Assembly: GCA_026397395.1 (NCBI GenBank)
Contig: JAPLUV010000010.1
Span: 15,533-53,070 of the forward strand
Direction of reading: 5' to 3'
Origin: a candidate division SR1 bacterium
Lineage (GTDB): Bacteria > Patescibacteriota > Gracilibacteria > Absconditabacterales > Absconditicoccaceae
Length of the DNA: 37,538 nt
Below, in pieces: positions 19,615-31,477 of the stretch. Position numbers and translations under genes: made by a program. The notes below the pieces were generated by a model. The model was not told the DNA's origin. It searched no databases and saw nothing but the letters and a program-made list of their open reading frames with translations. How positions within the stretch are numbered: position 1 is the stretch's first letter; each line of letters opens with the position of its first letter.

Positions 19615-20994
19615 ATGAAACTAACTTTCTGCGGAGCTGCCAAAATCGTAACCTGATCTTGCTACTACATTGAGACCTGAGACACCAAATTCCTAGTGGA
19701 TTGCGGGATGTTCCAATGACCCAAAGATGTCATGAAATTAAATTATGAACCATTTCTTTTCGATCCCAAAGAAATTGATTTTGTCTTACTTACTCATGCA
19801 CATATTGATCATTGTGGATTGCTGCCTAAATTAGTAAAGGGATGATTCGCTGGGAAAATTTATGCAACATCCGCTACGATAGATATCTGTGGCATTATTT
19901 TGGAAGATAGTGCAACAATCCAAGAGAAGAATGCGGAAGAGGAAAATAAAAGAAGATGACATAGTCATCAGCAGCCAAGAGTGCCATTATATACTCTCAT
20001 AGAAGCCAAGGCAACCATGCCACACTTCAGCAAAATAGAATACAACGCGACCAACAAAATTACGGAGAATATCGAGGCAAGATTCGTAGATGCCGGACAT
20101 ATCATGGGTTCAGCCAGTATAGAACTTTTTGTTACCGAAGATAATAAACAAAAGAAGTTAGTTTTTTCAGGAGACATTGGGCAACGAGATACGCCTATTG
20201 TAAAAGATCCAACCCTGATTGAACATGCAGATTATCTGTTCATGGAATCTACCTATGGAGATAGATCACACGAAGACACAGCAGGTAAAGAAGAATTATT
20301 ATTGAAATACACATTGGAAACATTCAAAAAATGAGGAAAATTATTGATCCCCTCTTTCTCTGTAGAAAGAACTCAAGAACTCCTCTACTTCTTCAATATC
20401 TTAATTACCAAGTGATTGTTCCCTGCAGAGAAAATATTTTTTTTTTTTTTTTTATCCATCAAAGCAACAGAAATATTCAAAAAGCATACAGAATTGTACG
20501 ATGAAGAAGCAGCAAAAAAATATCCCCATGCATTTGAATTTCCACAGTTAACTTGTACTGCAAGTGTTCAAGATTCTCAGAAGTTAAATGACTATACAGA
20601 TCCTTGTATTATCATCGCAGGAAATGGAATGTGTACTGCAGGCAGAATCAGATATCATCTGGAACACGGATTGGAAGACAAAAACAACACGTTATTATTT
20701 GTTGGCTATCAAGCTGAAGGAACGCTAGGAAGATATATTTTGGAAGGAGAAAAAAGAGTAAAATTAATGTGATTGGAATTAGATGTAAATTTGGAAATTG
20801 CCAAAATTAATGGGTTTTCTGGCCATGCAGATGAAGAGTAACTCACCAGACGAGCTAAATGATTCACCACAGCACCGACCAAGACATTTATCATCCATGG
20901 GGAAGGGAATGCACAAACTACACTACAATCCAAACTAGAAACCATGGGCTTCACCTGTGAAATCCCAAGCATCAAAGATCAGATAGAATTATAG
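19615..20994 (+). pseudogene. Metallo-beta-lactamase/beta-CASP RNase-like protein, interrupted
   Basis: 460 codons to the TAG at 20992-20994, but codon 409 is an in-frame TAA (20839-20841). The family is intact otherwise: zinc motif HAHIDH at 61-66, DAGHIMGSASIEL, FSGDIGQ, MESTYGD, SFSVERTQELLYF, AGNGMCTAGRIRYHLEHGL, VGYQAEGTLGR, INGFSGHAD, and after the TAA LTRRAKGF...FIIHGEGNAQTTLQSKL. This is the CPSF/YSH1-like group that processes RNA. A run of 17 Ts (20437-20453) makes residues 275-279 five Phe where the family has the conserved DSPLA-type segment (here ...EKI-FFFFF-LSIKATE). Both defects could be sequencing or assembly errors, or true decay; the reading frame is unshifted by the T-run, which argues for one origin. 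Start: ATG after a purine-poor leader. Confidence 0.75.
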
Positions 20995-26223: not shown

Positions 26224-26736
26224 ATGAAAGTTATCGCACATAAACTCAGAAAAAATCTCGCTATCATATTTGCCGCTGCAGTCTGCGCCTTGGTCATTTT
26301 CTTTATTGTCAAAAATCCTGGACTTTTCCAATCAAGCATTTTGTCATTGGGAGAAAAGGCATTTATGAACCAGCAAAAACGAGACGCAGCATACAAGACA
26401 AACAAGGGACCATTTGAAATTTTCGTAGCAGAAAAATATAAGACAACAATAACAAGCTTCGAGTGAATCATATATTTCGATGCAGATAAAGTACAATTAG
26501 AGACAGGAAACCTCACAGGACAAGGACAATTTACTGTGAAACAGACTACCAAAGATAGTTTATTAGTCACCATAAAAATATCTGACAAGATAGATACAAA
26601 CTCAGAGATTATCGGCATTCCTTTTTCTTGAGAAGCCAAAGACATTGTTCTGGGAGAATCAAAAATCAAGACCAGAAAAGGACGAGCCCAGGTAACTGTA
26701 GGTAATTTAAACAATTTTGTTGAGCATACAAAATAA
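26224..26736 (+). CDS. Exported or membrane-anchored cohesin-like protein
   Basis: 170 aa. A basic start (HKLRKNLA) and one helix (IIFAAAVCALVIFFIV) are followed by a basic linker and one beta domain with ITSFEGIIYFDADKVQLETG and IIGIPFSGEAKDIVLGESKI, closely like cohesin-fold strands (a 'valley' strand after the YFDxxKVxL motif). The match to cohesin is by pattern, not by a decisive motif. Two TGA=Gly codons, at 26464-26466 and in FSGEAK. Followed 20 bases later by the Ig-like membrane protein, probably in one operon. Confidence 0.75.
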
Positions 26737-26756: not shown

Positions 26757-28472
26757 ATGAAAAGAAGTTTTACCCAAAACTTTCGAAGTAGATTGAGATG
26801 CAATGGCCTAGGTCAGAAAACAGCTTTGCACACCAAAAACTTTCTACCCAAAATCTGAATCCTATTCGGGGTTTTTCTCGTGTTAGGATTGTTTGGTGTT
26901 TCTCATGGACATGCAGCTACCCAACCAGATGCATTTATCGTAGAAGTCCAACCAAGCTCATTTGATGTCAATGAAGCCGTAGATATCACAATCAAAGCAG
27001 TAACTGCGAATGGAGACATTGTCAAAGATTATCAGTGAGACGTCTTTATCGAGATTGATGGCATTGCTGATACTGCAGATTATGTAGTACCTAGTGAATG
27101 ACTCTATACCTTCGTAGCACAAGATCAGTGAGTGAAATTATTTTCCAAGGGATTGATAGTCAAAAGATCAGGAACCTTTGCTGTCAAAGTATCAGATATT
27201 GTGAATGAATCCATCGCAGGAGAAAAAACTATCATAGTAGGAAGTAGCACTAATGCATCTGCCACAGAAAGTATTAGTATTGCCACACCAGCAGATGGTG
27301 GTATAGAAAGAAATAATGTAGTAAATGTCATAGCAAATGCTCCACAATTACCTAATTCTCCCTATTCTATTTTTCTCAACAACAGTATCGTAGCAGAAGG
27401 GACAACGGACTCCATAGGAGATATCAATGCATATATGTCTGGCGTCATCGCATGACAAAATCTGCTACAGATCAAAATATCCAATGCGAATAATGAGATC
27501 ATTGGAGAATCAACAAGCATGAGATTTACTTACAATCCCATCAAAGACGGAGTATTTGATAGTGTACAAATATTACCAAGTACCAAAGTAAAACAAGGAA
27601 CCAAGACGACATTCAACGTCAGTACCAGTGATAGCGTTAGCTCTGCAGTGATTAAATTAAGCAATGGGAAAAGTTTGCCTATGGATAGAAAAACAGCCTG
27701 ACTGTTTACCAAAGATATCGTAATAGATACCGAAGGAAATATTGACGTAGGTGTTGATCTGCTCAATGCAGGAAAGACATCCAGTTATACAGGCATTGCT
27801 ACAGTCATCGTAGAAAAGAGTATAAGTATAGGCAAGATTAGACTATATTCTGATAGCATAGACAAAACGAAGCTCAATGTAACACGAGAAACTGTTGGGA
27901 AAGCAGACAAATACAAAGTAGAATATGGCACCAGTTCAGATCTTCTAGATCAATTTGTCATAGCACCAACCAATGAAATAGTAATAAACAATCTCACTAT
28001 TGGACAAACATATTATTTCCAAATTACACCCTTAGATAGTACCCAGACAGCAATCGGACAAACATCTCCTGTAACACAAATTGTAGTAGGACAAGACCTC
28101 GCTTGTATAGTAAAAAACATAAGCGTCAGAGATCAAAAGATTGGTGATAAATATTATTTAGTACGATCGTGAGTAGAAAATGCAGATAAATATCTCATTT
28201 ACAGATCTGATTTTGATACCAGTGATAGTAGCAAAATGCAAAAGGTCGGAGAAACAACAGGTACGATGTTTGAATACCCATTTGATAAATCAAGCAAGAC
28301 AGACAAATATGCATACTATTTAGTAGAGGCTGCATGTAAGAATGGCTCTAATCTCAAGATCGATAATGCAAAAAGGATTAAGGTATGACCAGTAGAAAAT
28401 GTTCTCCTTTTTATTGTAATTGCCCTCTTTGGTTATTGTATATTTAGACTTTATAAGTATTCTGAGAATTAA
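26757..28472 (+). CDS. Surface protein with Ig-like and FN3-like modules and C-terminal anchor
   Basis: 571 aa. Start at the ATG at 26757-26759; an internal signal-anchor (ILFGVFLVLGLFGVSHGHA) begins near residue 37 behind a basic 36-residue leader. The first module (residues 55-160) is an Ig-like domain with FDVNEAVDITIKAVTANGDI, IADTADYVVPSEGLYTFVAQD and KLFSKGLIVKRSGTF. Further modules include FVIAPTNEIVINNLTIGQTY and YYFQITPLDST, an FN3-like pattern, and YLIYRSDFDTS. A closing helix (VENVLLFIVIALFGYCIF) precedes RLYKYSEN. Seven or more TGA=Gly codons. Likely cell-surface; whether it binds the cohesin-like neighbour (e.g. dockerin-like) cannot be seen. Confidence 0.85.
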
Positions 28473-28533: not shown

Positions 28534-31477
28534 ATGGATTTTCCCAAAAAGTATACTCACCAGAGTATCCAACAAGAACTTTTGACAAGACAAAAAAGAA
28601 ATAAGCTTTTTGGCAGCAAGGCCATCAAAAAAGCAGGTGAAAAGTGAACAATTACACTTCTCAGTTGACCGATATTAGTAGCTCCAACAACCACATCATA
28701 TAGTCAATTACTGCAAACCATCAAAGAAGATTGTATGGCGAGATATTTTCGTATGCTCGGGAAACAAGCTAATTACTCACCTCGATTTGGCTATCAAACA
28801 GGGAATAATCAGTGAGATGAGAAGAAGCACAACAACACACAACGAAGCAAAGATATAGAGAAACAGAAGAATAAACGAATCAGACAAATGATCTGGTTGG
28901 GTATTGGTTTTGACGAAAAAGAGTGTTTATCACTCCTCTCTCCCATCACGACTCGTAAGCTAAGAAATACTATCGATTATTATATGCAGGAATGATGGAT
29001 CAAAGATGATATGGCAATCAATTATCGATCCAATCAGAGACAGACCAATATTTCTCCAGAAGAAATAGCCCGAAAGAAAATCAAAGGGAAAATATATAAT
29101 ATCAGATATTTTGTCGATACCAAAAACATTACCATTGTAGTAGGAACCAACAGTCCAGAGACCATCTTTGGTGACGTAGCACTAGCAGTACATCCGGAAG
29201 ACAAGAGATACAAGAAATTGATTGGCCACAAGGTTATCATTCCAGTAATCAACAAAACTATTCCTGTCATTGGAGACGAGACCATAGATATCACCAAAAA
29301 CAATGGCGTCATGAGAGTCAGTCCTTGTCACGATACACGAGGATTACAGATAGCACAAAAACATAACCTCAAGACCAATACCTTTGCGATAGATCACAAT
29401 GGTTGTTTCACAAAACTTGCAGGAGATTTTGGAGAAAAAAAAGTAGCAGATTTTCTAGGAAATATCTTACAAAATCTAGAGGATATTCACAATTTGGAAT
29501 CCGTACATCAAGAGGAATTCGAGATCCCTACAGACAAGACGTCGGGAGAAAAACTCCAAGCCATTCTTTCTCAGCAACGATTTTTTGTGGTACCAGAAAA
29601 CGTTACTCAATCAACGGGAGAAGAAACAATGCTTCAGAGTATCAATATTCAGCCAACAATGTATCACGATCTGCGAGAAAAAACAGCCGACAATCAAACA
29701 AATATTCATTGGCCTATTAGTCAAAAAGACAGTATAGGAATAGCATTACCTGTATGGGAAAATGCAGAAGACAGTTATTTCGTAGGAGAATACGACATCA
29801 TCAATGCATCAGGGAGAAAGGCAAAAGGAAAAAAAATAATTCCTACCTTATTGCTCTTTAATCTCATAGCAGACAATCAACTCCCTACATTATTCAACAT
29901 AGAAAATCTTATAGAGCTCATGCTTTCTCCATGAACAGAATGACAAAACATTGGAGAAATGTATATGCAAGCATTTGAAGAAGAATTACCTAGAGGCTAC
30001 AAATCTGAGATCAATGAATTCATCAAACTTTTTGAATATGCAGAAACAGACCTTATCAAAGGAAAAAGTCTGACCAACTACGAAAAGTTTAGCATACAGT
30101 TGACGGACATATTGGACAAAACGTTTGGTGTAGTAAACAAAAAAGGAGGCAGATATTACTTTGATGTCGCAGCGATTATGGGAAGTAAAGAAGAACTTAT
30201 TGCTAGCACAGAGAAGTGCGAAAGCAGCCTAGCTACGAGTATTTTACTCTTACAACAGTCAGGGATATTGGATGCATTACAGGCAGAAAGAACCATTTTT
30301 TTGGGAACAGAAAAGGAAAAAAATACCATTATCAAAACCAATATATTAGGAAAATTAAAAACAGGACATGCACCACTACAGGATATTTTTCTCTTTTCTG
30401 AAGATAAACCCTGCAAAGCAGAATTGCGAGAAGAGCTCATCCAACAACGAGGATCAGATAATATTAGATTGCAAAGCATCACACAAGATATGCGAGAGAT
30501 TAATAGATTGACCAATGAAGAAGCAGAGAAACACGCAGCATTACTAAACAAAATATGGAACGCGTGCAGATATGTCCGAGCAAATTTCATTGACAGCAAA
30601 AAGAAAAAAAAAGGATGAAGAAAGAGATCTCAAAGAACTATGATGATCTTTAGAAAAGAAAGTGAGTAAAATGGATCCCAATGATTATCGAATGCTCTGC
30701 AGGATAAAAGATCTCTATACAGAGTTACCAGATTATTTGGATAAGAACAACATCTCACAACTCAGTGCCAAAGCCATCGAATGTATCAAAAAAGATTTCT
30801 GCGATAAATATCTAGAAATTATCAAAGTAAGAGAATCTGAAATCACAGAGAAAGTAGCTATCTTTTGTGTAGGGATGTTTCTTCAGATATTACATCCAGT
30901 TATTCCTTTTTTGACTGAAAAAATATGGGCCCTCTTTGGATTTGCATGATATATAGGCAATCAGAAATATACTAATTTCTTGGAGAAAGCTACCAAAAAT
31001 TACAAGACTCAACTCTTTATGGATATCATTGATAAATTTACTGCATTGAGAGAAAAGACTGGGCAAGCAAAACATCAAAAAGTAGATATATGTTTTCATG
31101 CATCTATGGACTTCATCCATTACATCAAAGAAAACGAAGACATAGTTACCAAGCTTATTAATACAGATCAAATCAATTATGTAGATAATGAAAAAGGACT
31201 TGCCTCATATGAAACCGACAGCATTATCGATGTAACTATAGGATTAAGAGCTATTGGAAAACCTATCAAAATAGTAGCAAATAAAGAATCATGGACAAAA
31301 GAATTAGCAAGAAAGCAAGAAGAGCTACAGGAAATTAGAAATCTTACAAGCAAACTCTCCTTAGACAAAAAGAATAAAAAAATTATTGAAAAGAAAAAAG
31401 AAGAAATGTTGGAGCTTAAAAAAGGAATAGAAAAATTAGAGTTTGAAATTAAAAAGAGTAAGATGAATGAAAAATAG
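28534..31477 (+). pseudogene. Valyl-tRNA synthetase-like protein, catalytic motifs lost, frameshifted
   Basis: About 980 codons if one base is skipped in the A9 run at 30604-30612; otherwise frame 1 stops at 30667-30669 and the rest lacks a good start. ValRS order is clear: RYFRMLG near 70-76; IYNIRYF; editing domain with SPETIFGD (207-214), LAVHPEDKRYKKLIGHKV, IPVIGDETID and SPCHDTRG (263-270); LNKIWNACRYVRANF (from about 671); then LQILHPVIPFLTEKIWALF and a C-terminal coiled coil. But the HIGH segment reads APTTTSYSQLL (50-60) and the KMSKS position DKPCKAELR (near 622), so aminoacylation is not expected. In the editing site Arg of TTRPET is Ser and the second Asp of HDxxD is Gly. The frame is open over 680 codons with TGA=Gly, so this was under selection before or despite the indel. 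Confidence 0.8.

Follow-up and report, generated by a model that had tools for sequence, protein, structure and literature searches.

Introduction

Free-standing editing factors such as AlaX, ProX/YbaK and ThrRS-ed are synthetase editing parts that act separately from the charging enzyme and keep their catalytic pocket. A review of synthetase duplications presents LeuRS-I of Sulfolobaceae as a second class Ia synthetase that binds tRNA without charging it and is important for growth (PMC9437257, citing Weitzel 2020), and its account of SLIMP is of a full-length pseudo-synthetase that has kept tRNA binding and lost aminoacylation (PMC9437257). Pseudo-synthetases as such are known, with LeuRS-I and SLIMP as the nearest described cases. 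Among the duplications covered in that review there is no ValRS case, and text searches for a ValRS paralogue in the CPR or Absconditabacteria literature found none.

Here we describe such a gene in the window, by which we mean the whole 37,538-nucleotide stretch of DNA that was analysed, together with its relatives in candidate division SR1 / Absconditabacterales / Gracilibacteria, mostly metagenome-assembled genomes and several of them from lakes. The gene family combines synthetase descent, an intact enzyme alongside, loss of the catalytic motifs and purifying selection. Because the charging site is lost and yet the full-length protein is under strong selection, it probably has a job different from charging, and probably a tRNA-binding one. 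The explanation that we favour, with slightly more confidence than doubt, is that this is the native Absconditabacteria ValRS, converted into a conserved pseudo-synthetase that binds tRNA(Val) without charging it; its binding and function we infer from sequence comparison.

Reading frame and architecture

All proteins were translated with TGA as Gly (genetic code 25) plus CGA/CGG as Trp. The latter reassignment is described for Absconditabacteria (PMC8629427), and it was applied here because conserved Trp positions of the intact ValRS in the window's genome (L001) are written CGA/CGG. A UCG tRNA with G73 is present in the same genome, alongside this reading. A table-11 reading was rejected, as the gene then falls into pieces. 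With the reassignments, positions 28534-31477 encode a complete ValRS-shaped protein that lacks HIGH, KMSKS and the other residues of the synthetic site. Its parts are as follows.

28534-30612, + strand: pseudo-ValRS, frame-1 part, with Rossmann half 1, editing domain, order-specific insert, Rossmann half 2 and the start of the anticodon-binding domain (code-25 ORF; NCBIfam ValRS models; orthologues L010-L019)
30614-31477, + strand: pseudo-ValRS, frame-2 part, with anticodon-binding domain, C-terminal domain, coiled-coil arm and stop TAG (Pfam Anticodon_1, 3e-16; joined to the first part in orthologues)
30604-30612, + strand: A9 tract, frame shifted by one base against every orthologue that has no assembly gap
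28681-28713, + strand: HIGH position, reads APTTTSYSQLL (alignment with canonical ValRS)
30403-30429, + strand: KMSKS position, reads DKPCKAELW (DKPCKAELR before CGA/CGG were read as Trp)
29089-29523, + strand: editing (CP1) domain, with the highest conservation of all domains in the clade (domain identities; 1gax and 1wk9 matches of the orthologue)
29311-29340, + strand: editing pocket, with R (K270), S (T272), H275 and D276 kept, and G (D279) (1gax alignment; column counts)
30547-30573, + strand: NKIWNACRY, equivalent of T. thermophilus K581...R587-F588, the anticodon-binding site (column counts over 33 pseudo copies)

The original prediction of a frame open over more than 680 codons holds for the ORF at 28534-30669, which runs for 711 codons in code 25, but not for the whole gene as one frame. 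ValRS homology in frame 1 ends at about codon 692 and resumes in the +1 frame at about 30611-30614, from where it continues to 31474. This frameshift is unique to the window copy among gap-free copies; the copy of G026 is also interrupted, but adjoining Ns. Assembly error, recent mutation and transcriptional slippage at the A9 tract are the candidate sources of the shift. Elsewhere in the window, a 17-nt homopolymer of A or T lies at 20437.

The ValRS architecture that had been predicted is recognisable in the NCBIfam ValRS matches, in Anticodon_1 and in a structural model. Against the ValRS model PRK05729 / TIGR00422, the two parts of the window gene score 181.7 and 87 bits, far under the cut-off of 704, and the unshifted orthologue L093 reaches 277 bits, also below this curated valine--tRNA ligase threshold. 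AlphaFold2, run on full-length L093 with 17 sequences, returned a class Ia ValRS fold that includes CP1, the anticodon domain and the arm (pLDDT 82, pTM 0.74), the structure prediction that had been proposed as a check. T. thermophilus ValRS 1gax ranked top in Foldseek for this model, the two structures match at Z 27.7 and rmsd 4.7 over 741 residues, and for the editing domain the orthologue has matches to 1gax and 1wk9. The entire synthetase body, dead catalytic halves included, is thus predicted to fold.

Distribution, active ValRS and origin

Our survey covered 49 genomes of the family, the whole order sample as well. A motif-less ValRS is found in 33 genomes, drawn from 12 or more of the order's genera, and the canonical form only, with HIGH and KMSKS, in 14. 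All nine genomes of the window's genus carry a full-length orthologue, with 37-51% identity to the window copy over the first part and up to 84% among the others. KMSKS is present in none of the 33 pseudo copies and HxGH, the second H of HIGH, in three; DHAG, ISRQ, DTWFSS and GYD are lost as well. The replacement of both ATP-binding signatures noted in the window copy is therefore not a chance event, since the same losses recur in the 33 orthologues.

A search for a second, canonical ValRS in the same genome had been suggested, and one was found. The window's genome (1.25 Mb, 39 contigs) encodes an intact archaeal-type ValRS elsewhere (C4:2593-4983), with HIGH and KFSKS, scoring 937 bits for PRK13208 against a cut-off of 738. 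The genome therefore does not need the window gene for charging, and we rejected the possibility that it is the canonical ValRS of this genome. A second ValRS accompanies the pseudo-ValRS in 32 of the 33 genomes, as against none of the 14 canonical ones; the sole exception is a 73%-complete draft (G009). It is only partly assembled in G024, G030 and G004, and intact wherever a pseudo-bearing genome has it assembled completely.

The near-perfect co-occurrence of the two proteins would suit a SLIMP-like arrangement, in which the pseudo-ValRS joins the active ValRS as a subunit with no catalysis of its own. It might, for example, supply its C-terminal arm to the archaeal-type enzyme, which is short (about 800 aa) and has no coiled-coil arm of its own. 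However, the two genes are unlinked, and the archaeal-type enzyme has been replaced in several lineages that kept the pseudo-ValRS. G005 and genus g14 use a different, distant bacterial ValRS with HMGH, KMSKS and its own arm, and G033/G070 use a distant bacterial ValRS with the order's insert and likewise its own arm; L069-L071 were recognised as bacterial-type by sequence inspection. The active ValRS has been exchanged at least three times, with the pseudo-synthetase kept each time, which disfavours a lasting tie to any one charging enzyme. We consider the subunit explanation quite improbable, and the idea of an obligate partner of the archaeal-type ValRS loses weight because that enzyme has been replaced three or more times. 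An unusual tRNA-Val as the target was also rejected, the scanned tRNA loci holding an ordinary set of UAC and GAC tRNA-Val genes only. The window's genome has two clearly different tRNA-His (GUG) genes (L277 and L281), perhaps through assembly contamination.

In the ValRS tree, the pseudo copies form one side of a single branch (SH-aLRT 100, with long branches and no bootstrap). In the rpoB tree, the genomes with a pseudo-ValRS and a second ValRS form one derived group, at the base of which the canonical G015 stands in an unresolved split. As sequence trees, both fit a single origin of the pseudo-synthetase. An insert of about 130 residues is common to the pseudo-ValRS and the order's canonical ValRS and missing from outgroups, which identifies the pseudo-ValRS as the native valS. 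In the canonical proteins L020-L035 the insert is helical, lies between the two catalytic halves and has a conserved start, LSLIIFNLIADSRL...F.IE.LIDVLF. In a sister family, G037 encodes intact bacterial-type and intact archaeal-type ValRS together (L091, L092), possibly the state that preceded formation of the pseudo-synthetase.

Selection

The original prediction also left room for a decaying duplicate, and proposed a test of orthologues for purifying selection. Omega was estimated with a pairwise codon model, and saturated-dS distant pairs (WIN-L010, L019-L039 and others) were left out. The usable pseudo pairs give omega of 0.037, 0.046 and 0.035, with omega=1 rejected (2dlnL 627 to 806); their dS of 2.2-2.6 is high, so that these values are approximate, but neutrality is still excluded in every domain. 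For canonical ValRS, the pairs whose dS is usable range from 0.02 to 0.06. The pseudo-synthetase family is under strong purifying selection, with omega about 0.04.

Decay would account for the A9 frameshift, for the interrupted G026 copy and for the faster evolution of the pseudo family relative to canonical ValRS. Against it, the 31 other copies have open frames of about 790-1020 codons, every domain is constrained, the part of the window copy downstream of the shift remains constrained relative to L010, and all pseudo-clade genomes keep the gene except G031, which is 87% complete. Selection and retention lead us to reject decay of the family, which we regard as barely credible.

The distribution of constraint has changed relative to canonical ValRS. 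Mean pairwise identities (pseudo/canonical) are 21/58% and 19/65% in the two catalytic halves, 23/36% in the order-specific insert, 25/46% in the anticodon domain, 28/35% in the C-terminal part and 45/58% in the editing domain. Constraint has moved off the charging site and is held on the editing domain, the C-terminal arm and the anticodon motif.

Editing pocket and anticodon motif

Sites were numbered after T. thermophilus ValRS from a phmmer alignment to 1gax. In the window copy the editing residues are altered as had been predicted (K270 to R, T272 to S, D279 to G). Across the 33 copies, K270 is never retained and is R in 28; 28 copies have S or G in place of D279 and two keep the D; R216 is gone from 32; H275 is retained in 23 and D276 in 27. 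None of the pocket residues is invariant, as G017, G019, G020, G021 and part of g4 lack K/R270, T272 or H275. A literature search on ValRS editing-pocket residues found nothing relevant, and their roles are taken here as background; D279 presumably holds the amino group, aligning with the amino-group-binding Asp of IleRS and LeuRS editing sites.

These data bear on a trans-acting editing or hydrolase factor, whose re-tuned CP1 pocket would deacylate tRNA that is mischarged or modified in another way. No part of the protein is better conserved than the editing domain, H275 and D276 persist in most copies, and the changes at positions 270 and 279 are shared and directed rather than scattered. 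Nevertheless, the intact pocket expected of such a factor (K270, T272, D276, D279) is not found, D279 is lost in 31 of the 33 copies, and the intact ValRS of the same genomes has its own editing motif. Since no pocket residue is common to all copies, trans-editing is unlikely as a shared function, although it is possible in the lineages with H275/D276; this option of the original prediction stands but is weakened, and overall we judge it unlikely. With similarly low probability, the pocket may have been rebuilt (K270R, D279 to S/G, H275/D276 mostly kept) for a new state of the tRNA(Val) 3' end, making the protein a dedicated checkpoint or signalling factor.

The anticodon motif W-N-x-x-R is kept, as seen in sequence comparison: W583 and N584 are present in all 33 copies and R587 in 30. 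We take residues of this type, with K581, to read A35-C36. Two points speak against tRNA(Val) binding, namely that K581 occurs in just 20 copies and that conservation is lower in the anticodon domain than in the editing domain. Binding appears doubtful in the deep, highly diverged lineages G020 and G021, and the most conserved surface of the pseudo-ValRS may serve something besides tRNA.

Gene neighbourhood

Two conserved genes precede the pseudo-ValRS.

26757-28472, + strand: c2, upstream neighbour, about 571 aa, hydrophobic N and C termini, Ig/FN3-like (adjacency; fn3 match)
26224-26736, + strand: c3, next conserved neighbour, 170 aa, hydrophobic N terminus, extracellular-type domain (conserved adjacency)

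Across the pseudo loci c2 is about 560 aa and c3 about 165 aa; c2 is presumed from its sequence to be a membrane-anchored surface protein, and c3, which has no Pfam match, likewise has the look of an extracellular protein anchored in the membrane. Of the 49 family genomes, 48 contain c2. In 32 of the 33 loci c2 lies directly upstream on the same strand at short distance, usually with c3 ahead of it, whereas the other neighbours vary across the clade. This conserved linkage suggests co-expression of the pseudo-ValRS with both surface-protein genes.

The same adjacency could point to a tRNA-free role tied to the c3-c2 surface/secretion proteins, with the synthetase fold serving as a scaffold. 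However, canonical genomes carry the c3-c2 pair without a pseudo-ValRS and away from valS, so the pair is older than its linkage to the pseudo-ValRS. The adjacency itself was possibly inherited, as valS lies 2.7 kb downstream of c2 in the canonical G015 (318 kb away in G013). Furthermore, c2 and the pseudo-ValRS are apart in G020, and the anticodon motif is still constrained. We regard this explanation as very unlikely.

Discussion

The native bacterial-type ValRS became a conserved pseudo-synthetase a single time, in the common ancestor of a large clade, in lineages where another ValRS taken in from elsewhere, archaeal-type and later sometimes bacterial-type, charges tRNA(Val). The residues for ATP and valyl-adenylate chemistry are gone, and the predicted full fold, editing domain, anticodon motif and C-terminal arm have stayed. 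Under the favoured reading of a non-charging, tRNA(Val)-binding pseudo-synthetase, the protein may bind tRNA(Val), or a tRNA that carries A35-C36, as ValRS would, through the anticodon motif and the C-terminal arm, with the anticodon in the helical domain and the 3' end directed towards the altered CP1 editing pocket. Once bound, it would play a non-charging part, that of a regulator, holder or checkpoint factor working through tRNA(Val) binding. Of the functions first proposed for this gene, a tRNA-binding or regulatory factor appears to fit best.

A parasite genome of 1-1.3 Mb retains a gene of nearly 3 kb for a dead synthetase, clade-wide and despite exchanges of the charging enzyme. This amounts to a natural experiment in which the charging job of a synthetase is separated from its other roles, and it makes the non-charging roles of class I synthetases a testable question.

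Compared with canonical ValRS (1gax), the pseudo-ValRS shares the predicted fold, domain order, anticodon motif and C-terminal arm; it differs in the absence of HIGH, KMSKS, DHAG, ISRQ and DTWFSS, in its altered editing pocket and in the extra insert of about 130 aa. Unlike AlaX, ProX/YbaK and ThrRS-ed, it has a changed pocket, with D279 lost, and keeps the entire synthetase body. It resembles SLIMP, as the review portrays that protein, in being a full-length pseudo-synthetase, with tRNA binding as a putative second likeness; SLIMP is class II and has SerRS as its partner, whereas the active ValRS beside the pseudo-ValRS has been swapped repeatedly, which argues against an obligate partner. 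The likeness to LeuRS-I is that of a second class Ia copy beside a working synthetase. In the same review's description, LeuRS-I derives from LeuRS, forms leucyl-adenylate and carries an editing domain that is disrupted (PMC9437257), whereas the pseudo-ValRS is bacterial and ValRS-derived, its adenylation site is gone and its editing domain is the best conserved part.
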